From assembly GCA_947474395.1 (NCBI GenBank), contig CANJID010000004.1, positions 1 to 64,000 of the forward strand: a stretch of DNA of 64,000 bases. Direction: 5' to 3'. The notes under the pieces are model-generated. The model was not told the origin of the DNA. It worked only from the letters and a program-made list of their open reading frames with translations, and searched no databases. The DNA comes from Caulobacterales bacterium (GTDB lineage Bacteria > Pseudomonadota > Alphaproteobacteria > Caulobacterales > Caulobacteraceae). How positions within the stretch are numbered: the first letter of the stretch is position 1; each line of letters starts with the position of its first letter. Both the position numbers and the translations under genes were made by a program. This document shows, one piece after another, positions 8,789-19,517 of this stretch.

Positions 8789-10186
8789 ATGAACGTCTAT
8801 TTCCTCGGCATCGCCGGCGCCGGCGTCAGTGCGCTCGCGTCGCTCATGGCCTCGCAGGGCCATACGGTCTCGGGCTCCGACGACGGGGTCTTCCCCCCCA
8901 TCAGCACCTATCTCGACCGCCTGGAGATCGCCTGGCGCGAAGGCTTCGATGCGGCCCTGCTGCCCGACCATATCGACCTCGCCATCGTCGGATCGAGCGC
9001 CAAGCTCGCCCTCGAGACCAACCCGGAGATGGCCGAGCTGACCCGCCGGGGGGTCCCGCGCTACAGCTTCGCCGAATATCTTGGCGAACTGACCAAGGCT
9101 CGGGAGACGGTCGTCATCGCCGGCAGCTTCGGCAAGTCGAGCCTGACGGCCATGTGCGCCACGATCCTGAAGGAAGCCGGGCGCGATCCGGGCTGGTTCA
9201 TCGGCGCCATCCCGTTGGACCTCGACGCCACGGGGCACGCCGGGACCGAGCCGACCTTCCTGATCGAGGGGGACGAGTACATCGTCTCGCCTGAGGACCG
9301 GCGCTCCAAGTTCCTGCTCTATCACCCCAGCCACGTGCTGATCTCGTCGCTGGTGCACGACCACATCAACGTCTTCCCGACCTTCGAAAGCTACGTCGCG
9401 CCGTTCCGCGAACTGGTGGCCCTGACCCCTAGGGACGGCCTGCTGGTCTGCGCCCGCGCCCACGCGGAGCTGCACGCGATCACCGAGGGCCGGGCGGTGG
9501 TCTGGTACGGGCTGGAGCCCGGGCCGGGCTATTACGCGGAAGACATCGTGATCGGGGAGATCACCCGCTTCGTGCTCGTCACCCCGAGCGGCGCGCGCAT
9601 CCCGCTCGCGACCGAACTCCTCGGCCTGCACAACATCGAGAACATCGTCGGCGCCGCGGCCCTCTTGCTGGAGCGGGGGCTGGTGGACGCGGACGGCCTG
9701 ACCCGCGGGGTGGCAAGGTTCAGGGGCGTCGCCCGGCGCCTCGACAAGAAGACCAGCGTCTCCCGCGTGCCCGCCTACGAGGGCTTCGGCTCTTCCTATG
9801 AGAAGGCCCGTTCGGCCATCGAGGCGATCAGCCTCCACTTCCCCGACCGGCCGATGGTGACCGTGTTCGAGCCCCACACCTTTTCCTGGCGCAACCGCGA
9901 GGCCCTGGCCTGGTACGACACGGTGTTCGAAGGGGTCAGCCGGGTCCTGCTCCTGCCGCCCCCCGGCCACGGAGCGGCCAGCCACCACCAGCTCAGTCAG
10001 TCCGAGATCGGCGAGCGCGTCCGCGCGGCGGGGGTTCGTTGCGAGGCCATGGCCGACGGCGCCCAGGTCCTGGCCGAACTGAAGGCCACCCTGAAGGGCG
10101 ACGAGGTGGTGCTGCTGCTGTCGTCGGGACCTTTGGATGGGCTCGCGGAAACGGCGCCCAAGCTTTTGGATGAACTCTTCGCCTAG
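8789..10186 (+). CDS. mpl: Mur ligase family protein, Mpl-like
   Basis: A 465-residue Mur ligase. In Escherichia coli, Mpl joins UDP-MurNAc to the recycled tripeptide L-Ala-gamma-D-Glu-meso-DAP. The N-terminal Rossmann domain starts FLGIAGAGVSALA. The ATP P-loop is AGSFGKSSLTAM (residues 111-122), where the classic form is GTHGKTT. LIEGDEYIVS, the HNIENIVGAAALLLERG region and the C-terminal FEPHTFSWRN domain follow the Mpl order. Its stop overlaps the DUF1365 stop on the other strand. The altered P-loop makes the exact substrate less certain. Confidence 0.85.
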   Translation: MNVYFLGIAGAGVSALASLMASQGHTVSGSDDGVFPPISTYLDRLEIAWREGFDAALLPDHIDLAIVGSSAKLALETNPEMAELTRRGVPRYSFAEYLGELTKARETVVIAGSFGKSSLTAMCATILKEAGRDPGWFIGAIPLDLDATGHAGTEPTFLIEGDEYIVSPEDRRSKFLLYHPSHVLISSLVHDHINVFPTFESYVAPFRELVALTPRDGLLVCARAHAELHAITEGRAVVWYGLEPGPGYYAEDIVIGEITRFVLVTPSGARIPLATELLGLHNIENIVGAAALLLERGLVDADGLTRGVARFRGVARRLDKKTSVSRVPAYEGFGSSYEKARSAIEAISLHFPDRPMVTVFEPHTFSWRNREALAWYDTVFEGVSRVLLLPPPGHGAASHHQLSQSEIGERVRAAGVRCEAMADGAQVLAELKATLKGDEVVLLLSSGPLDGLAETAPKLLDELFA

Positions 10187-10971
10187 CCCCAATCACCCGG
10201 GATGAGCGGGACATTTTTAAAGCTCACCGGATGCGCCGGCGCCGCCGGCCGGCGGTGGAACGTGGCGCCCTTGAGCCAGAGCTTGAGGGCTTCCCAGTGG
10301 ATGCCCACGATTACCTTCAGGGTCAGCAGCGGATGGGCGAGCCAGGCGCGCAGGATGGCGGTGTCGGTGAGGTCGCGGCGCTTCCCGGCGAAGGCGGCGT
10401 TCAGCACGCGCTGGCGTTTGCGGCTGACATCGATGTTGACGCCGATGTCCTCGCCGGGCGGGACCACCTTGAAGTCGTAAGCCAGGTCCATGGCCAGGAA
10501 GGGTGAGACGTAGAGGGCCTTGTCGCAGGCCTGGCGCACCGGCCCGTCGCCTTCCACCGGGATCAGGTAGCCGTGGCGGTCGCCGAAGGTATTGGAGACC
10601 TCGTAAAGGATGGCGGCCAGGGCCCCGTCCCGCCGATGGCAGAAGTAGATGCTCAGCGGGTTGAAGACGTAGCCCAGCACGCGGGGCAGGCAGAGGAGCC
10701 GGATCGGCCCGTCCGACGGCAGGCCCGCCGCCTTCAGTTGCGCCTCGACCTGAGGGCGCAGGGGGCCGCTCCCGTCGCCGTGGTCGGCGTCGTGCAGGCT
10801 GAGCAGGGAAATGCGGTTGTGGGCGAAGAGGCGCAAATCATTCGACAGCGCGTCCAACTCATCGAGGTCGAGCAGCAGCATGAAGAGGCGGTAGCGCAGG
10901 AAGTGGGCGCGGGGCGTGAAGCGTCGGTGGGTGACGACGCCGCCATAGAGACCTGACGCCCAGGCGGTCAT
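10183..10971 (-). CDS. DUF1365 family protein
   Basis: A 262-residue protein of the DUF1365 family, found next to FAD oxidoreductases and cyclopropane-fatty-acid synthases in sigmaE-ChrR regulons. Visible family motifs are GxVxHRRFTPRAHFLRYRLFMLLLDLDEL at the N-terminus (with YGGVVTHRRF), LGYVFNPLSIYFCH and EVSNTFGDRHGYL. Its ATG overlaps the stop of the FAD oxidoreductase by four bases. The last codons (PLIPGDWG) coincide with a piece of a dispersed repeat. Biochemical role unknown; a lipid-modifying step is inferred from context. Confidence 0.9.
   Translation of the reverse strand: MTAWASGLYGGVVTHRRFTPRAHFLRYRLFMLLLDLDELDALSNDLRLFAHNRISLLSLHDADHGDGSGPLRPQVEAQLKAAGLPSDGPIRLLCLPRVLGYVFNPLSIYFCHRRDGALAAILYEVSNTFGDRHGYLIPVEGDGPVRQACDKALYVSPFLAMDLAYDFKVVPPGEDIGVNIDVSRKRQRVLNAAFAGKRRDLTDTAILRAWLAHPLLTLKVIVGIHWEALKLWLKGATFHRRPAAPAHPVSFKNVPLIPGDWG
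10196..10219. repeat. Partial copy of the 31-bp inverted-repeat arm
   Basis: The sequence CGGGATGAGCGGGAC followed by a T-rich stretch matches the outer end of the right arm of the repeat at 56555-56585. It is embedded in the last codons of the DUF1365 gene and supplies residues PLIPG. Confidence 0.55.
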
Positions 10972-12317
10972 GAGCGGACTTCGACCTCCGCCGGGGCGGG
11001 GCCGAGGAAGATGCGGCCGGACTCGTTCTCCACCCGCCACGGCCGGCGCACCCCGCCGAGGGCCTCGGCGACGGCGAGGCCCGCCTGCAAGCCGTCCTCG
11101 TGGAAGCCCGAACCGAAATAGGCGCCGCAGAACCAGGTCCCGCCTTTTCCTTGCAGGCTCCAAAGTTCGCGCTGGGCGATCATGGCGCCGAGGTCGAACA
11201 GGGGATGCTCGTACTCGTGGCTCCACAGCACGGTCTCGGCTGCGGGCTCGATCAGGGGATTGAGGCTGACCAGCAGGGGGTCTCCGGGCAGGCTCTGCAG
11301 GGCGTTCATCCAGTAGGTGACGCTGCCGCCCCCGTCGCGGGTCCCGAGGTAGTTCCAGGCCGACCAGGTGGCCCGCCGCCTCGGCATCAGGGCGACGTCG
11401 GTGTGCAGCACGGCGCGGTTGGGGGTGTAGCGGAACGCCCCGAGGATGCGCGTCTCCTCGGCGCTGGGGTCTTCCAGCAGGCGCAGGGCCTGGTCGGCGT
11501 GGCAGGCGATCACGACCTGGTCGTAGCGCTCGATGCGCCCCGTGGCGTCGCGGACCAGCACATCGCCCTCGACGCGGCCGATCCCCGTCACGGCGCACCC
11601 GGTTCGCACCCGGTCGGCGTAGGCGGCGGTGAGGCGCTGCACATAGGCGCGGCTGCCGCCGTCCACCGTGCGCCACTGGGGCCGGGCGGTCAGGCTGAGC
11701 AGGCCGTGGTTGTCGAAGAAGCGGATGAAGGCCTCGGCCGGATGTTCGGCGATGTCGCTCAGGGTGGCCGACCAGATCGCGCCCGCCTGGGGCAGGATAT
11801 GGTCGTTGCGGAAGGCCGCGCCGTAGCCCCGCGAGGAGAGGTAGTCGCCCAGGCTCAGGCCCTGGCGGCAGACGGCGTCGAGGTCGTGCACGGCGTCGCG
11901 CTGGAACCTGACGAGGTCGCCCAGCATCGACCAGAAGCGGGGGCGGATGAGGTTCTCCGGCTGGCCGAACAGGGCCCCGAGCCCCGTGGTGCCGTACTCC
12001 AGCGCGCCCTCGTCCAGGGAGACGGCGAAGGACATGGGAGCGGGCTTGGTGGGCACGCCCAGGTGGTCGAACAGGGCCGTCAGGTTCGGATAGTTGGGCG
12101 GGTTGTAGACGATGAAGCCGGTGTCGACGGGGGTGGTCCGCCCGTCGGCGGTCGTCGCGTCCACGGTGTTGGAATGGCCGCCGGCCTTCCCTTGCGCCTC
12201 GTAGACCGTCACGTCGTGGCGGCGGGACAGGAGCCAGGCCGCGGACATTCCCGATATGCCGGCGCCGATCACCGCGACGCGGAGGGGCCGTTCGAGCCGG
12301 CGTTGGTGGAAGGTCAT
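10968..12317 (-). CDS. FAD-dependent NAD(P)-binding oxidoreductase
   Basis: A 449-residue flavoprotein of the amine-oxidase/phytoene-desaturase type. The N-terminal dinucleotide motif is VAVIGAGISGMSAAWLLSRRHDVTVYEAQGKAGGH with the GG doublet, and the domain typical of this family beside DUF1365 follows. ATG 12317 is chosen because it starts directly before the Rossmann motif. It is the first gene of the leftward arm of the sigmaE cluster, 64 bases downstream of a TGATCC -35 element. The substrate is probably a membrane lipid or fatty-acyl chain (inference). Confidence 0.9.
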   Translation of the reverse strand: MTFHQRRLERPLRVAVIGAGISGMSAAWLLSRRHDVTVYEAQGKAGGHSNTVDATTADGRTTPVDTGFIVYNPPNYPNLTALFDHLGVPTKPAPMSFAVSLDEGALEYGTTGLGALFGQPENLIRPRFWSMLGDLVRFQRDAVHDLDAVCRQGLSLGDYLSSRGYGAAFRNDHILPQAGAIWSATLSDIAEHPAEAFIRFFDNHGLLSLTARPQWRTVDGGSRAYVQRLTAAYADRVRTGCAVTGIGRVEGDVLVRDATGRIERYDQVVIACHADQALRLLEDPSAEETRILGAFRYTPNRAVLHTDVALMPRRRATWSAWNYLGTRDGGGSVTYWMNALQSLPGDPLLVSLNPLIEPAAETVLWSHEYEHPLFDLGAMIAQRELWSLQGKGGTWFCGAYFGSGFHEDGLQAGLAVAEALGGVRRPWRVENESGRIFLGPAPAEVEVRS

Positions 12318-12356
12318 CGGGCTCCCCGGTCCTGCGGGCGCCTCGCCCACAGTTCG

Positions 12357-12386
12357 GCTTTACGCAAATGATGGGGCGGTGGATCA
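12357..12386 (-). promoter_or_regulatory. ECF sigmaE-type promoter of the FAD oxidoreductase operon
   Basis: On the leftward strand TGATCC (12386-12381) is followed by exactly 18 bases and then TAAAGC (12362-12357). The -35 matches the TGATCC element reported for the Rhodobacter sphaeroides RpoE/ChrR regulon, and the -10 keeps the TAA start. It faces the FAD oxidoreductase gene. Confidence 0.7.
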
Positions 12387-12411
12387 CTGGAGGCCGAGAT
12401 CGCCGGGCCGG

Positions 12412-12441
12412 TGATCCAAGCGCGGCGCGTCTGCGTAGGGA
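12412..12441 (+). promoter_or_regulatory. ECF sigmaE-type promoter of the sigma/anti-sigma operon
   Basis: TGATCC (12412-12417), then 18 bases, then TAGGGA (12436-12441). Spacing is identical to that of the divergent partner. Transcription would begin near 12448, so the in-frame ATG at 12447 would be at or before the transcript start. This supports the GTG at 12522 as the sigma factor start and implies autoregulation. Confidence 0.72.
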
Positions 12442-12521
12442 GCGGCATGGATGGACGGGCGCTGTTTCATGAACCCATCGGCGGACGCCCGGCCTTGGCG
12501 GCTGTGGGGCGGCGAGGCGTG

Positions 12522-13094
12522 GTGAGCGCGGCCGAGGACCGGAACGACGGGCTCGAGGACGGGGCGACCCTGATCCTGGCCGTGGCCGCGGGCGACCGGG
12601 CCGCCTTCGCCCTGCTGTTCACCCACTATGCCCCGCGGGTGAAGACCTACCTGCTGCGCCGGGGCGCGGGAGTCCAGCGCGCCGAGGAACTGGCCCAGGA
12701 GGCCCTACTCAGCGTCTGGCGCAAGGCCGGCCAGTTCGATCCCCTCCGCGCCAGCCCGGGGGCCTGGATATTCACCATCGCCCGCAACCTCGGCGTGGAC
12801 GATCACCGCCGGGCCCGCCCCGTGGCGGACGCCCTGGCCGACGATCCCAGCGCCGCCCCCGAGCCTCCCGCCGCCGCCGACGCCCGGCTGGATGCGGCGG
12901 AGCGCGACCAGCGCCTGCGCGAAGCGGTGCGGGCCCTGCCCGCGGACCAGCTCGCCGTGGTCCGCCTCTCCTTCTTTTCCGACAAGCCGCATGCCGAGAT
13001 CGCCGCCGAACTCGGCGTTCCCCTCGGCACGGTGAAGTCGCGCCTGCGCCTCGCGTTCGTCCGGCTCCGCGCCGGCCTGGAGGATTTCCGATGA
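12522..13094 (+). CDS. rpoE: ECF RNA polymerase sigma factor, RpoE/ChrR-controlled type
   Basis: A 190-residue sigma-70 factor of the ECF class. Region 2 spans FALLFTHYAPRVKTYLLRR to EELAQEALLSVWRKAGQFDP with the FTIARNLGVDDHRR stretch. Region 4 has LPADQLAVVRLSFFSDKPHAEIAAELGVPLGTVKSRLRLAFVRLR. GTG 12522 is preferred because a TGATCC-N18-TAGGGA promoter lies at 12412-12441, leaving ATG 12447 as a leaderless alternative. The next gene encodes its anti-sigma factor and overlaps by four bases. In Rhodobacter the equivalent factor responds to singlet oxygen. Confidence 0.9.
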   Translation: MSAAEDRNDGLEDGATLILAVAAGDRAAFALLFTHYAPRVKTYLLRRGAGVQRAEELAQEALLSVWRKAGQFDPLRASPGAWIFTIARNLGVDDHRRARPVADALADDPSAAPEPPAAADARLDAAERDQRLREAVRALPADQLAVVRLSFFSDKPHAEIAAELGVPLGTVKSRLRLAFVRLRAGLEDFR

Positions 13095-13684
13095 CGACTC
13101 ATCATCCCTCCGAATTGACCCTGACGGCTTTCGCCGCCGGAACCCTGTCCGAGGGCGCGAGCCACGTGGTCGCCGCCCACGTCGTGGGCTGTCCGCATTG
13201 CCGTGAGGTCACGGCTATGGCGGAGGCGACGGGCGGCGCCCTGCTCGACGACATGCCGCCCACCGAGATGGCGGCCGACGCCCTTGAGCTGGCCCTGGCC
13301 CGCATCGACCGCCCGGCGCCGCATGGGACTTCCGCGGGCCTCGTCTTCGGCCGTCGCCGCTGGCTTGCCCCCGGTGTCTGGATCACTCCGGGGAAGATCG
13401 CCGCGCGGGGCCGCGAGCAGCTCTACCGCCTGGACGTGCCTCAGGGCCGCCGCCTGCCGCGCCACAGCCATGAGGGCAGGGAGTTCGTGGCGGTGCTGCA
13501 GGGCTGCTTCGTCGACGAGTCCGGCCTTTACGCCGTGGGCGACTTCGGCGAGGCCGACGCCAGCGACGACCACCAGCCCACCGTCCAGGGCGACACGCCC
13601 TGCGTCTGCCTGATCTGGACCGAAGGGCCGCTGCACATGCGCGATCCCATCGGCCGGTTGCTGCAGCCCTGGCTGGGCATCTGA
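13091..13684 (+). CDS. chrR: ChrR-type zinc/cupin anti-sigma factor
   Basis: A 197-residue protein. The N-terminal half has the zinc anti-sigma motif H-x3-C-x2-C (HVVGCPHC, near residues 30-37). The C-terminal half is a cupin with HSHEGREFVAVLQGCF and a later His in DDHQPTVQ. In Rhodobacter sphaeroides ChrR the N-domain holds sigmaE and the cupin is needed for release under singlet oxygen. The gene overlaps the sigma factor by ATGA, as expected for a stoichiometric pair. It is almost certainly the cognate anti-sigma factor. Confidence 0.92.
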   Translation: MTTHHPSELTLTAFAAGTLSEGASHVVAAHVVGCPHCREVTAMAEATGGALLDDMPPTEMAADALELALARIDRPAPHGTSAGLVFGRRRWLAPGVWITPGKIAARGREQLYRLDVPQGRRLPRHSHEGREFVAVLQGCFVDESGLYAVGDFGEADASDDHQPTVQGDTPCVCLIWTEGPLHMRDPIGRLLQPWLGI

Positions 13685-13686
13685 CC

Positions 13687-14556
13687 GTGGGCGTGAAGGC
13701 GGCCGCGCCGGCGCTGCTCGTGCTTGTGGCCGGGCTGACGGCCGCCTGTTCGCCGATCAAGACCCTGAACGCCCTGTCGCCCAAGGGCGGGATCAGCGTC
13801 ATCCACGACATCGCCTATGGGGAGGGCGCGAGCCGGGTCCTGGACGTCTACGCGCCCGCCGACCGCAAGCCGGGCCGCCCGGTGGTGGTGTTCTTCTACG
13901 GGGGCAACTGGGACAGTGGGAAACGGGCCGACTACGCCTTCGTCGGCGCGGCTCTGGCCCGGCGCGGCTATGTGACGGCGATCCCCGACTACCGGCTCTA
14001 CCCGGAAGTCCGCTACCCGGCCTTCCTGGAGGACTCCGCCGCCGCTGTCCGCTGGGCCAGGGACCATGCCGCCCAGTATGGCGGCGACCCGAACCGGATC
14101 GTGCTGATGGGCCATTCGGCGGGGGCCTATAACGCCGCCATGCTGGCCGTCGACCGGCGCTGGCTGGCGACCGTGGACATGGACCCGCGCCAGGACGTCA
14201 AGGCGGTGGTGGGCCTGGCTGGTCCCTACGACTTCCTTCCGCTCAAGGCGCAGCGGTTCAAGGACATCTTCGGCCCCGAGGACCAGCGGCCCATCACCCA
14301 GCCGATCAACCACGTGGACGGCCAGGCGCCGCCGATGTGGCTGGCCACCGACCTCGGCGACAAGGCGGTCGATCCCGGCAACACCAGCCGCCTCGCCGCC
14401 CGCATCCGCAAAGCGGGCGGGACGGTTGAAGAGCATTATTACGCCCGGCTGAGCCACGCCCTGATGGTGGGGGTGATCGGCTCGCCCCTGCACTTCCTGT
14501 CGTCGGTGTTCCGCGACGCCACCGCCTTCATTGACGCCCGCGCCGCCCGGCCCTGA
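13687..14556 (+). CDS. Alpha/beta hydrolase lipoprotein
   Basis: A 289-residue esterase of the carboxylesterase/BD-FAE type. The N-terminus (GTG start, two bases after the chrR stop) is a lipoprotein signal with lipobox LTAAC. FFYGGNWDSG is the oxyanion-hole region (HGG-like, here YGGN), GHSAGAYNA carries the nucleophile Ser, and SHALMVG has the probable catalytic His. Membrane-anchored in the periplasm; the substrate may be a lipid ester. It lies in the sigmaE cluster and may be part of the response. Confidence 0.85.
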   Translation: MGVKAAAPALLVLVAGLTAACSPIKTLNALSPKGGISVIHDIAYGEGASRVLDVYAPADRKPGRPVVVFFYGGNWDSGKRADYAFVGAALARRGYVTAIPDYRLYPEVRYPAFLEDSAAAVRWARDHAAQYGGDPNRIVLMGHSAGAYNAAMLAVDRRWLATVDMDPRQDVKAVVGLAGPYDFLPLKAQRFKDIFGPEDQRPITQPINHVDGQAPPMWLATDLGDKAVDPGNTSRLAARIRKAGGTVEEHYYARLSHALMVGVIGSPLHFLSSVFRDATAFIDARAARP

Positions 14557-14570
14557 CGAGGATCAGTCCC

Positions 14571-14981
14571 ATGCCCCAGACTGCCGTCGCCTATATCGCC
14601 ACAGCCCTGGCCCTGGTCCTGCTGGACGCGGTCTATCTCACCCAGGTGGGCGGTCCCCTGTTCCGGACCACGGTCGGCGACATGGCCGCCGACAAGGTCG
14701 CCCTGGCCCCGGCGGTGGGTTTCTACCTGATCTATTCCTTCGCGGTGATGGCGCTCTGCGTCTCGCCCGCCCTGGGCGCCGGGTCCTGGACCAGGGCGGC
14801 GGCGGCCGGGGCGGTGCTGGGGCTGGCGGCCTACGGCGCCTACGACCTCACCAACATGGCGACCCTGAAGAGCTGGTCCCTGACGCTCACTCTGGTCGAC
14901 ATGGCCTGGGGCGCCGGCGCCACCGCCGTCTCCTCGGCCGCGGGGGTGTTCGCCGCCCGCGCCCTCGTCCGCGCCGTCTAG
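14571..14981 (+). CDS. DUF2177 family membrane protein
   Basis: A 136-residue integral membrane protein with four predicted transmembrane segments (near residues 5-25, 45-65, 75-95, 110-130). It matches DUF2177 by AYDLTNMATLKSWSLTLTLVDMAWG. It sits between the esterase and the CFA-type methyltransferase. DUF2177 genes recur beside CFA synthases in ECF sigma regulons. Function unknown. Confidence 0.88.
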   Translation: MPQTAVAYIATALALVLLDAVYLTQVGGPLFRTTVGDMAADKVALAPAVGFYLIYSFAVMALCVSPALGAGSWTRAAAAGAVLGLAAYGAYDLTNMATLKSWSLTLTLVDMAWGAGATAVSSAAGVFAARALVRAV

Positions 14982-14993
14982 CAGGGGCCGCCA

Positions 14994-16229
14994 ATGACCG
15001 ACGCCACCGAGATCGTCCTCACCCCCTTCGCCGGACCCCGGGCCCTGCCGAAGGTCCCTTCGGGCCTGCGCTCGATCCTGCGTCTGCTGGCGCAGAACTG
15101 GGAGGCGGGACGGCTGTCCATCGGCCTGCCCTCGGGCGAGGCGGTACGGATCGAGGGCCGCAGCCCCGGTCCTTCCGCCCGGATGGTGGTGCGCGACTTC
15201 CGCTTCGTGCGGCGGGTCCTGACCGGCGGCCACCTCGGCTTCGCGGAGGGGTATCTGGCGGGGGAATGGGAGAGCCCCGACCTGCCGGCCCTGCTGGAGG
15301 TGTTCTCCGCCAATTTCGACCGGCTGAGCGCGGTGGTGAGGGGCCATCCCCTCGCCCGGCTCGGCGACGCCCTAGCCCATGCCTTCAACGCCAACAGCCG
15401 GCGGGGATCCCGGCGCAACATCCGCGCCCACTACGACCTCGGCAACGCCTTCTACGCCCCGTGGCTGGACGCGGGCATGACCTATTCCTCGGCCTTGTAC
15501 GCCTATCCGGGCGAGCCGCTGGAGGCGGCGCAGGCCCACAAGTACGCCGCCCTTTCCCGGGCCGCCGGGCTGGAACGCGGCTGCCGCGTGCTTGAAATAG
15601 GCTGCGGCTGGGGCGGCTTCGCCCAACATGCGGCGGCGGACATCGGCTGCGATGTCACCGGCCTGACCCTGTCGACCGAACAGCACGCCTACGCCGCGCA
15701 CCGGCTGGCCCAGGCGGGGCTGGCGGACCGGGCGCGGATCGCGCTGACGGACTATCGCGACGTCGAGGGGACCTTTGACCGGATCATCTCCATCGAGATG
15801 TTCGAGGCGGTGGGCCAGGCCTACTGGCCGGTCTATTTCCGGCGGCTGCACGAGCTGCTCAGGCCCGGCGGCCGGGCGGGGCTGCAGGTGATCGTCATCC
15901 GCGACGACCTCGTTGATGGCTATGGCGGCAAGCCAGACTTCATCCAGAAGCACGTCTTCCCCGGCGGCATGCTGCCGAGCGAGGCTCAGCTCAGGCAGGA
16001 GACGGCGCGGGCGGGTCTGGTCTGGGGCGAGGTGCGCCGCTTCGGTCAGGACTACGCCGAGACCCTGGCGGAATGGGCGAAAGCCTTCGAGGCGAATTGG
16101 CCGACCATCCGGGCCTTAGGCTTCGATGAGCGCTTCCACCGGCTGTGGCGCTACTACCTCGGTTATTGCGAAGCGGGCTTCCGCACCGGCCGCACCGACG
16201 TGATCCAGCTGACGCTGGACAGGCCCTAG
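14994..16229 (+). CDS. Cyclopropane-fatty-acyl-phospholipid synthase family methyltransferase
   Basis: A 411-residue SAM-dependent enzyme acting on unsaturated acyl chains of phospholipids. YDLGNAFYAPWLDAGMTYSSALY and LEIGCGWGGFAQHAA (SAM motif I) are typical, with ISIEMFEAVGQAYWPVYF and the C-terminal FRTGRTDVIQLTL. The CFA-synthase N-domain is present (residues 1-120). As the third lipid-related gene of the sigmaE cluster it probably alters membrane lipids under oxidative stress, either by cyclopropanation or by methylation as in furan fatty acid synthesis. Its end overlaps the following convergent gene by four bases. Confidence 0.9.
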   Translation: MTDATEIVLTPFAGPRALPKVPSGLRSILRLLAQNWEAGRLSIGLPSGEAVRIEGRSPGPSARMVVRDFRFVRRVLTGGHLGFAEGYLAGEWESPDLPALLEVFSANFDRLSAVVRGHPLARLGDALAHAFNANSRRGSRRNIRAHYDLGNAFYAPWLDAGMTYSSALYAYPGEPLEAAQAHKYAALSRAAGLERGCRVLEIGCGWGGFAQHAAADIGCDVTGLTLSTEQHAYAAHRLAQAGLADRARIALTDYRDVEGTFDRIISIEMFEAVGQAYWPVYFRRLHELLRPGGRAGLQVIVIRDDLVDGYGGKPDFIQKHVFPGGMLPSEAQLRQETARAGLVWGEVRRFGQDYAETLAEWAKAFEANWPTIRALGFDERFHRLWRYYLGYCEAGFRTGRTDVIQLTLDRP

Positions 16230-16651
16230 CCCGTCTTCGCCGACGATCCGAAGGCGCCGGCGATCACCCGGGGCCGGGCCATCACCTCGCGGATCAGCTC
16301 CAGGAAGAACCTGGCGTTCAGCGGCTTGGCCATGACCGCGTCGGCGCCCATCAGGGAGGCCATGCGCAGCAGGGGATCGGGGCCGATGCGGGCGGCGCCG
16401 CCGGAGATGGCGATGATGCGGATTTCCGGCCAGCGGGCGCGCAGCTCCTGGATGGTCTCCACGCCTTCCTTGTTGGGCATGAGCATGTCGAGCACCACCA
16501 GGTCGGCGCGGGCCGTCTCCAGGTGGGTGATGGCGGCCTCGCCGTCCTCGGCCTCGGCGCAGTCGTAGCCCTGCGGGACGACGATCTGCATCACGATCGC
16601 CCTCAGAAGGGGATCGTCGTCCACCACAAGGATCGAGACGCGGTCGGACAT
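16226..16651 (-). CDS. Single-domain response regulator (CheY-like)
   Basis: A 141-residue receiver domain. The acidic triplet VVDDDP, phosphoacceptor Asp in VLDMLMP, the conserved Ser of AISGG, and Lys in VMAKPLN are all present. No output domain. ATG 16651 follows a GAGGAG site; the upstream ATG at 16684 is less likely. Converges on the CFA synthase gene with a four-base overlap. Partner kinase unknown. Confidence 0.9.
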   Translation of the reverse strand: MSDRVSILVVDDDPLLRAIVMQIVVPQGYDCAEAEDGEAAITHLETARADLVVLDMLMPNKEGVETIQELRARWPEIRIIAISGGAARIGPDPLLRMASLMGADAVMAKPLNARFFLELIREVMARPRVIAGAFGSSAKTG

Positions 16652-16725
16652 GGGCGGCTCCTCACCCATGTCCTTACGCCTCACGGTCCCAACGTCCTGT
16701 TAACGCGTGGCGACGGGCGACGGCC

Positions 16726-17379
16726 TCAGACGAGGCCGCGGCGCTGGGCTTCCAGGGCCGCTTCGGCCCGGGATGCGATGGAGAGCTTCAGGTAGATGGC
16801 CTTCACGTACCCGGCGACGGTGTGGTCGGCGAGCCCCAGCACCCGCGCCGTCTCCGCTACCCTGAGGCCCCGGCCGAGCAGGCCCAGCACCTCGGTCTCA
16901 CGGGGGGTGAGGGCCACGGGCGGTTCGAGGGCGCCGGGACGGGGCGGCAGGGCGCGGAAGTGCTCCATGATGCGCCGGGCGATGGAGGGCGACAGGGGCG
17001 GCTCCCCCGCCTCCATCCGCCGGAGACGGGCGACCGTGGCGTCCGCGTCATGGTCTTTCAGCAGGTAGCCCTGGGCGCCGGCGGCGATGGCGTCGAACAG
17101 GTGCTCGTCGTCGTCGAAGATGGTGGTCACCACGATGACCGCGGCCGGCTGGGCGGCGACCAGGGCGCGGATGAACTCGACCCCGGAGCCGTCGGGCAGG
17201 CCGAGGTCGACCAGGGCCACGACCGCGGCTCCCCCGTCCCGCCGGAGCAGCCACTCCTGCGCCTCGGCCAGGCTTGCGGCCTCAGCCACCGGTACGGCCG
17301 GGAAGGCCGCAGCCATCACCTCGCACATCCAGGCGCGGGTGTCGGGCTGGTCTTCAAGCACCAGGCCGATGCGGTTCAT
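16726..17379 (-). CDS. NarL/LuxR family response regulator
   Basis: A 217-residue response regulator. The N-terminal receiver domain has LEDQP and phosphoacceptor Asp in ALVDLGLPDGSG, with TTIFDDDE and LLKDHD. A C-terminal LuxR helix-turn-helix reads LTPRETEVLGLLGRGLRVAETARVLGLADHTVAGYVKAIYLKL. Its ATG overlaps the kinase stop by four bases, so the upstream histidine kinase is its partner. Target genes are not evident. Confidence 0.92.
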   Translation of the reverse strand: MNRIGLVLEDQPDTRAWMCEVMAAAFPAVPVAEAASLAEAQEWLLRRDGGAAVVALVDLGLPDGSGVEFIRALVAAQPAAVIVVTTIFDDDEHLFDAIAAGAQGYLLKDHDADATVARLRRMEAGEPPLSPSIARRIMEHFRALPPRPGALEPPVALTPRETEVLGLLGRGLRVAETARVLGLADHTVAGYVKAIYLKLSIASRAEAALEAQRRGLV

Positions 17380-19517
17380 ACGGGGACCTCGAGGGGGGCG
17401 AAGGGGATGCGAAGACTGACGGTCAGGCCGGGCCGCCGCTCATGGAAGGCGACCTCGCCGCCGATCTCGCCGAGGCGGCGGCGGACGTTTCGCAGGCCAG
17501 AACCGGTGGGGTCGCCCGGCAGGGCGCCAATGCCATTGTCGGAGACGTCGGATTCCAGGGCCTCCGCCGTGCAGCGGATCCTGACCTCGACCCGGCTGGC
17601 GCCCGCGTGGCGGATCACGTTCGAGACCAGCTCGCGGTGGGCCGAGGCGTAGTGCTTGTAGATGCGGTAGGGCAGGCGGCGCCCCTGCGCGTCATCGGGG
17701 GCGTCCCAATCGAAGGCCAGGCCCGCCCCCTCCAGGCGCTGGGCGGTCTCGTGGCGCAGGTCAGCCAGGACGCGCTCCAGCGGCAGGGCCTCTCCGGTCA
17801 GGCCGCTGACGATGCCGCGGATGTCGGCGATGGCCTCGCGCAGGACCAGCCGCGCCTGGCCCACGTCCGGCTTGTGCAGGCCCGACAGGAGGCGCGCGCC
17901 CACGTCGTCGTGCAGATCCTGGGCGATGCGCTTTCGCTCGGCGCTGGCGCCCTGCTCGTAGGCGGTGCGGCTGGCCTCGGCGTGGCCCATCAGGGCCGAC
18001 AGCTGGCGGGCGAACTGCAGGTGCGAGGGGCCGAACAGGCTCTTGCCGCTCCAGGGATAGCGGACCGTCAGGCTGGGGGCGCCGGCGGTGGGGGGAAAGG
18101 TCATCTCCAGCCCGTCTGGCCCGGCCACCGGGGCGGCGACGGGCCGCTCGGCGGTGATGATCTCCAGGGGATCGAACAGGCGCCGCAGCAGGTCCCGCCA
18201 CCTTTCCGTCCGCTCGGCCGGGGCGCCGCCGAAGGCCACGTCCACCACGGCGCGGAAGAGCTCATGCTCGGGCATCCGCCGCCGCATCACGAGGCGCCGC
18301 CAGAGCAGGTCGCGGAACGGCAGGTAGAGGAAGGCCACGCCCAGCAGCGCGACCCCGAGGGAGAGGCCCCGCCCGAGCCGCAGGGCCAGGATCAGGGCGG
18401 CGTCGAGAGCGATCAACGCCACCGCCGCCCCGGTGAAGAAGAGGATGCGGAAGGCCCACTCGTCGAGCTGGAACAGGCGGTAGCGCCTCAGTCCAAGGGC
18501 GAGGCCGACGTAGATCAGGAGGAAGAAGCCGAAGGTATAGGCCTGGGGCAGGACCGGGACGGCGTCGGCCAGGTGCGGCGCCGCGGTCAGGACGACGTAG
18601 GCGCCGGCCCCGACGATCACCGAGACCCCGAACCAGCGCAGGGCGGCGCGGGCGGCGGGGTCGGTTCTTGTGGCCCGCCACTGGGCGAAGATGGCCGCGA
18701 CGATGAAGGCCATCTCCAGCAGGATCGCCGCGTACATGCCGACCGCCGGGTTCACCGCGGCGTGGATGGAATCCAGCACCAGCCACGCCCCGAACAGCGC
18801 GGCCTGGGCCCACAGCAGCCAGGCCGGGCCGATGCGGCGCGGATAGACCAGGAAGAGACCGATCATGGCCGCGCCGAAGCCCAGGGCGCCCAGGTGGTTG
18901 AGGAGGGAGAGGACCCGCAGCAGCGGTCCCTCCAGGAAGAGCTCACGGGTGGAATAGACCGCCGCCGGGAAGAAGGAGACCACCAGGGCCGCGCCGGAGA
19001 CGGCGAAGAGGCGCGCGCCGGCGTCGGACGGCCGCAGCGACCAGACCCAGCACCCGATCAGGCCCGCGCCGGCGCCGAAGGCCAGCTGCAGCCAGAACAC
19101 CGGGGGCAGGTCCGCGACCGGCCGTTGCGGGGCGGGCGCGACCGTCACGCTCCGTCCCGCCGGGCCGTCGAGGCGCAGGGTCACGGAGCCGGCCCTGGCC
19201 ATCGTCTGCATGGCGTCCTGGCGGGCCATGAAGGCTTCGACGGCCGGGTAGCTGGCCAGGGTGTCGGGCTCCTCGGTCAGGTCTTCGCCCCTAAGGTCGA
19301 CGGGACCGACGGCGAACAGGCGGGCGGGGGCGGGGACCGAGGCGGCGGGGCCGCGCGGGGCGACCCTGTCGACGGTGATCGTGTCCGCCGCGGCGTCGGC
19401 GTGGAGGCGCACCCCCAGCCAGGGCCGGTCCACGGCCGCCCATATGGCCAGCGCGGCGGCCAAGGCGCAGGCCGCCATCCCCGACAACATCAGAACGGCA
19501 GGCGACGCGGTGCGCAA
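17376..19517 (-). CDS. Membrane sensor histidine kinase (HisKA_3 type)
   Basis: A 713-residue kinase. An N-terminal membrane anchor is followed by a PDZ-like periplasmic part (near residues 35-130) and about eight transmembrane segments (roughly 135-400). The dimerisation/phosphoacceptor motif is RIAQDLHDDVGARLLSGLH and an HATPase_c domain ends with HRELVSNVIRHAGASRVEV and SDNGIGALP. Start is TTG 19517 or ATG 19490. The NarL-type regulator overlaps it. The architecture resembles the NarX/DesK group; the signal is unknown. Confidence 0.88.
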   Translation of the reverse strand: MRTASPAVLMLSGMAACALAAALAIWAAVDRPWLGVRLHADAAADTITVDRVAPRGPAASVPAPARLFAVGPVDLRGEDLTEEPDTLASYPAVEAFMARQDAMQTMARAGSVTLRLDGPAGRSVTVAPAPQRPVADLPPVFWLQLAFGAGAGLIGCWVWSLRPSDAGARLFAVSGAALVVSFFPAAVYSTRELFLEGPLLRVLSLLNHLGALGFGAAMIGLFLVYPRRIGPAWLLWAQAALFGAWLVLDSIHAAVNPAVGMYAAILLEMAFIVAAIFAQWRATRTDPAARAALRWFGVSVIVGAGAYVVLTAAPHLADAVPVLPQAYTFGFFLLIYVGLALGLRRYRLFQLDEWAFRILFFTGAAVALIALDAALILALRLGRGLSLGVALLGVAFLYLPFRDLLWRRLVMRRRMPEHELFRAVVDVAFGGAPAERTERWRDLLRRLFDPLEIITAERPVAAPVAGPDGLEMTFPPTAGAPSLTVRYPWSGKSLFGPSHLQFARQLSALMGHAEASRTAYEQGASAERKRIAQDLHDDVGARLLSGLHKPDVGQARLVLREAIADIRGIVSGLTGEALPLERVLADLRHETAQRLEGAGLAFDWDAPDDAQGRRLPYRIYKHYASAHRELVSNVIRHAGASRVEVRIRCTAEALESDVSDNGIGALPGDPTGSGLRNVRRRLGEIGGEVAFHERRPGLTVSLRIPFAPLEVPV

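Follow-up and report, generated by a model that had tools for sequence, protein, structure and literature searches.

The window, the whole stretch of DNA that was analysed, comprises 64,000 nucleotides (positions 1 to 64,000, forward strand) of contig CANJID010000004.1 of a Caulobacterales bacterium (assembly GCA_947474395.1). It contains an ECF sigma factor gene and a ChrR family anti-sigma factor gene on the plus strand and, divergent from these, genes for an FAD-dependent protein and a DUF1365 protein on the minus strand. The features of the locus are the following.

10183..10974, minus strand: DUF1365 protein (PF07103), in the place that ufaO has in R. sphaeroides
10968..12317, minus strand: FAD-dependent amine-oxidase-like protein (PF01593, PF13450), in the place that ufaD has in R. 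sphaeroides
12361..12364, minus strand: putative -10 element CGTA of the FAD/DUF1365 promoter, 16 bases 3' of the -35 element, read from the sequence and kept in relatives
12381..12386, minus strand: putative -35 element TGATCC of the FAD/DUF1365 promoter, read from the sequence and kept in relatives
12412..12417, plus strand: putative -35 element TGATCC of the sigma/ChrR promoter, read from the sequence and kept in relatives
12434..12437, plus strand: putative -10 element CGTA of the sigma/ChrR promoter, 16 bases 3' of the -35 element, read from the sequence and kept in relatives
12447..12449, plus strand: ATG, proposed leaderless start of the long sigma form, in frame and 10 nt after CGTA
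12447..13094, plus strand: ECF sigma factor (PF04542, PF08281), 215 aa in the long reading; the short reading starts from 12522
12519..12524, plus strand: GTG GTG, candidate internal start of the short sigma form, including the GTG 12522 of the sequence-only reading; recurs in relatives
13091..13684, plus strand: ChrR family anti-sigma factor (TIGR02451; PF12973 and zf-HC2 above cut-off)
13687..14556, plus strand: alpha/beta hydrolase (BD-FAE; Pfam)
14571..14981, plus strand: DUF2177 membrane protein (Pfam)
14994..16229, plus strand: cyclopropane-fatty-acid-synthase-like methyltransferase, UfaM-like or a CFA synthase (PF02353)

The sigma factor has its best sequence match in the Protein Data Bank with RpoE of R. 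sphaeroides (2q1z, E 4.5e-38). The neighbouring ChrR protein scores above the cut-off of TIGR02451 (155.6 bits versus 124.5) and below that of the narrower model NF051881 (147.9 versus 300), and the start of its gene overlaps the sigma stop codon (ATGA). Characters of an ECF11 system present at this locus are sigma regions 2 and 4, RpoE as the nearest relative, an adjoining gene for a ChrR with zinc-binding and cupin-like domains, and a TGATCC-N16-CGTA motif before the sigma operon. The promoters and the cluster belong to a well-known system, RpoE/ChrR of the ECF11 type, and resemble R. sphaeroides in both the sigma/ChrR pair and the TGATCC-N16-CGTA promoter. Caulobacter crescentus, from the same family as the host of the window, has the same sigma/anti-sigma pair, sigmaE-ChrR, with singlet oxygen and organic hydroperoxides as its activators (PMC6852236).

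The FAD and DUF1365 genes form a single operon beside rpoE, as judged from Pfam matches and from synteny in relatives. Furan fatty acids in R. sphaeroides are the products of RSP1091 (ufaD) and RSP1090 (ufaO), both in the operon RSP1091-1087 (PMC7380195); the core sigmaE-ChrR regulon includes furan fatty acid genes (PMC6852236). The two products in the window are likened to those of this operon, with its furan fatty acid genes, through Pfam and synteny. Unlike in R. sphaeroides, the methyltransferase, hydrolase and DUF2177 genes of the window come after chrR. The FAD gene starts at ATG 12317 (minus strand) with a GGGGAG stretch ahead of it. A response regulator gene (Pfam) adjoins the cluster on the minus strand (window 16229-19517), where further open reading frames resemble, by eye, a response regulator and a histidine kinase.

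The sequence-only reading had placed two outward-facing TGATCC elements between the two operons, each 18 bases from a -10 element beginning with TA. Both are present. On the sigma side, TAGGGA lies at 12436-12441 (plus strand), 18 bases beyond TGATCC at 12412-12417; on the FAD side, TAAAGC lies at 12362-12357 (minus strand), 18 bases beyond TGATCC at 12386-12381. The two promoters also have TGCGTA in common, which gives the fuller motif TGATCC-N16-CGTA, or TGATCC-N15-GCGTA. The former is the printed consensus for the Pseudomonas syringae ECF sigma factor PSPTO_1043 (PMC5507510), and TGATCC(N15)GCGTA is printed for an RpoE-dependent promoter of R. sphaeroides (PMC5036791). The strict form TGATCC-N16-CGTA occurs twice in the window versus 0.05 expected, and at least two occurrences are found in 1 of 100 shuffles. 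The proposed match to an RpoE-type consensus is borne out by the printed consensus. The loose form TGATCC-N(16-20)-TA occurs seven times versus 2.13 expected (at least seven in 1 of 100 shuffles), so the short TGATCC/TA form is poor at picking out real sites.

The motif was also counted across the genome (3.58 Mb in 103 contigs), with expectations taken from the shuffle rates of the window and scaled to the genome. A scan for TGATCC-N18-TA, which had been expected to list the rest of the regulon, returns 18 sites versus about 24 expected by chance. TGATCC-N(15-17)-CGTA also has 18 sites, four of them with a spacer of 16; for this strict form about 2.8 sites are expected, and two of the four are the divergent pair at 12357-12441. 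Because these counts are at chance level, the listing of a regulon by motif scan was rejected and no regulon is claimed. One of the remaining exact sites is on contig 16 of the same genome (L129, 5721-5746, minus strand), between a RecN/SMC-like gene and a gene for a 108-aa protein without a Pfam match, and upstream of a DNA ligase gene; it may be a chance match. The other overlaps the 3' end of an S4-domain gene.

The strongest evidence for the putative promoter pair is comparative. Among 80 named loci, 48 have a divergent FAD gene no more than 1,500 bases from the sigma gene. Spacers of 15-17 were allowed, and random windows of the same length from the same loci served as the control. An exact site is present on the sigma side in 35 of the 48 (control 0.7), on the FAD side in 29 (control 0.78) and on both sides in 26 (control 0.36). 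The exact sites listed have a spacer of 16 throughout, save one of 17 on the FAD side (L124). It is therefore extremely improbable that this GC-rich intergenic region holds the two motifs by chance: the roughly threefold excess of the loose form over shuffles and the chance-level counts across the whole genome would fit such a reading, but the strict form exceeds its expectation of 0.05 with two occurrences and the pair recurs in divergent relatives. Gene identities, motif and conserved pair together agree with the earlier proposal of divergent ECF promoters for the sigma/ChrR and FAD/DUF1365 operons.

The same proposal had taken the promoter to decide the sigma start in favour of GTG 12522. 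The comparison does not bear this out and points to a different codon. Sigma loci were surveyed for TGATC[CT]-N16-CGT[AT] within 450 nt of the sigma gene, and the arrangement scored was an in-frame, stop-free ATG 8-12 nt beyond CGTA. The first set contains the motif at 66 of 103 sigma loci, and 59 of the 66 have the arrangement, with no ATG off frame. On the FAD side, an ATG at this distance is in frame in 0 of 49 cases and off frame in three. Fresh sets give the arrangement in 28 of 30 Rhodobacteraceae, 20 of 29 Devosia and 30 of 30 Variovorax loci, with one ATG off frame (L133) and one closed (L137). Nine of 12 annotated plasmid records contain the motif, and all nine have the arrangement.

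Pooled and with duplicates removed, the sets comprise 205 sigma loci, of which 41 lack a motif match and 164 have one; 153 of these promoter-bearing loci are distinct. Of the 153, 135 have the open, in-frame ATG and 16 have no ATG there; in one locus it is closed and in one it is off frame. Open ATGs thus make up 135 of 136 distinct in-frame cases in a set that was not selected for openness. The relatives were gathered with few queries and the sampling is biased; after single-linkage clustering, the arrangement is found in the majority of members in 58 of 64 clusters at 75% identity and in 18 of 23 at 60%. The start that is conserved relative to the promoter is therefore the in-frame ATG 12447 rather than GTG 12522, which is probably not the sole start.

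Eighteen exceptions were inspected. Fifteen of them have instead an in-frame ATG 20-33 nt beyond CGTA, and 14 of these 15 carry a GGAG, GAGG or similar stretch ahead of it. A Devosia subgroup (L184-L192) keeps the promoter, and an ATG 27-28 nt beyond CGTA, mostly behind GGAG, replaces the leaderless one; the gene apparently alternates between having a leader and having none. Two Rhodobacteraceae loci retain only an internal GTG as a start: the upstream ATG is off frame in L133, which of the loci compared is closest to R. sphaeroides RpoE, and is followed by a stop in L137. The simplest reading of the arrangement and its exceptions is that translation normally starts beside the promoter, usually without a leader. 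The FAD arm also has a GTG at 12350 (minus strand), in frame and 11 nt after CGTA. As a candidate leaderless start it was set aside, since relatives do not keep it.

Whether the N-terminal extension is translated was analysed in 135 loci, after two of 137 long open reading frames without a recognisable AFxxLF motif had been dropped. These loci were chosen as open, so that the lack of stops in frame proves nothing; stops number 153 and 70 in the other two frames, which stay open in just 34 and 84 of the 135 loci. Cysteine makes up 0.8% of the extension in frame versus 4.9% and 6.3% in the other frames. Over 57 pairs, changes at the three codon positions number 475/461/619 in the tail and 1297/862/3554 in the body. 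The tail sequence is thus hardly constrained, since its changes are spread across codon positions, unlike those of the body. As a test for protein-level selection on the extension these counts give weak support, and they count against a conserved tail sequence. The net positive charge of the tail was also tried as a sign of translation; it does not exceed that of the control frames and is not used. The AlphaFold2 model has block mean pLDDT values of 47-55 (low confidence) for residues 1-30 and a first helix from residue 32. The prediction is that about 25-31 disordered residues precede region 2.

The internal start has a comparative record of its own. GTG GTG at 12519-12524 is directly preceded by a GAGG stretch. 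A start codon (ATG, GTG or TTG) lies in frame 11-34 codons upstream of AFxxLF in 134 of the 135 loci versus 72 and 48 in the other frames, and a Shine-Dalgarno-like stretch accompanies it in 53 versus 16 and 14. The 28 Rhodobacteraceae have 29 start codons at positions -26 to -23 relative to AFxxLF, with one other Val codon and one other Leu codon; outside this family the position is more diffuse. GTG 12522 is at position -27, and given the recurrence of the internal start it may also be real, as a second, internal one.

The explanation regarded as likely combines a divergent ECF11 control region, with both arms read by the sigma factor, and a leaderless sigma start at ATG 12447. RNA polymerase with the sigma factor would read both arms from the TGATCC-N16-CGTA promoters, and the release of sigma from ChrR would therefore switch on the sigma operon itself together with the FAD/DUF1365 operon. 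Sigma dependence, autoregulation and a response to singlet oxygen or peroxides are suggested by relatives and published work. The sigma transcript would be leaderless, beginning no more than a few bases from ATG 12447, and would yield a 215-residue protein with a disordered tail before region 2; the distance to the -10 element and the conservation of the ATG both argue for a transcript start at, and translation from, this codon. Translation of the FAD arm probably starts in the conventional way, at ATG 12317 preceded by the GGGGAG stretch.

Two other readings of the sigma start have to be weighed. According to one, only the short form is made, from GTG 12519 or 12522; 12447-12518 would then be a leader that is not translated, and the upstream ATG would do no more than supply a favoured first base to the transcript. 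The Protein Data Bank entry for R. sphaeroides RpoE starts near this point, the internal position recurs in relatives, L133 and L137 are limited to an internal GTG and the tail is weakly constrained. The B. japonicum sigma gene ecfF (ECF16) offers a precedent: it is autoregulated, its mapped transcript start overlaps the annotated ATG, as is predicted for the window, and the authors favoured a distal start (PMC3420878). EcfF differs in its promoter motif and in its anti-sigma factor, OsrA (PMC3420878). A favoured first base, however, would account neither for a full ATG that keeps the frame and stays open at 135 of 153 distinct loci, off frame at one, nor for the lack of such an ATG on the FAD arm (0 of 49), and production of the short form alone is accordingly judged unlikely.

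The other alternative, that the sigma factor is made both as a long form from the leaderless start and as a short one from the internal start, the two differing in stability or in affinity for ChrR, is somewhat more plausible but still doubtful. Both starts recur in relatives, and the Streptomyces coelicolor SigR/SigR'-RsrA system provides a parallel, in which an upstream ATG on an autoregulated transcript gives rise to SigR', a longer and unstable isoform, and the anti-sigma factor binds zinc (PMC5472188, PMC4921905). The window has an upstream in-frame ATG that is conserved and that may be the start used from the putatively autoregulated promoter, as it would be in a SigR'-type gene. SigR, unlike the sigma factor of the window, belongs to another ECF group and another phylum, and has a separate promoter for its short form. 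A second promoter was not found in the window by a scan of 12200-12620 for sigma-70-type sites, which returned none. Further points against two forms are that just 53 of 135 loci have the internal Shine-Dalgarno-like stretch and that the internal start is diffuse outside Rhodobacteraceae. A more specific version, held a little more tentatively still, extends the two forms to the ECF11 sigma factors of Alphaproteobacteria and Comamonadaceae. The long leaderless form would come solely from the stress-induced, autoregulated promoter and the short form from the internal start, with the tail tuning lifetime or ChrR binding in a loop parallel to that of actinobacterial SigR'; this loop would perhaps have been lost near R. 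sphaeroides and so overlooked.

What looks new relative to the known system is the position of the sigma start codon at the predicted transcript start in most of the relatives examined. The crystallised RpoE of R. sphaeroides has a short N-terminus, and the closest locus compared, L133, is without the conserved ATG. No leaderless ChrR-linked sigma gene was found in the literature searched, mostly without subscription papers or supplements, and the part of a review that lists ECF11 under soluble anti-sigma control names no N-terminal extension (PMC8999054). The putative conserved leaderless start, which is argued from comparison, is the part worth follow-up. If it is true, the ECF11 sigma mRNA is leaderless and the protein is longer than the crystallised R. 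sphaeroides form, and translational control could be put to a direct test as a further layer of a well-studied stress response. Start annotations would then be inconsistent or wrong in many genomes. For the nine plasmid records with the motif, RefSeq places the sigma start at the conserved ATG in two, at an internal codon in five and upstream of the promoter in two. L226 (NZ_CP070354.1) and L227 (NZ_CP083351.1) have a RefSeq sigma start at a TTG upstream of the -35 element that touches the divergent FAD gene, despite an in-frame ATG 10 nt after CGTA.
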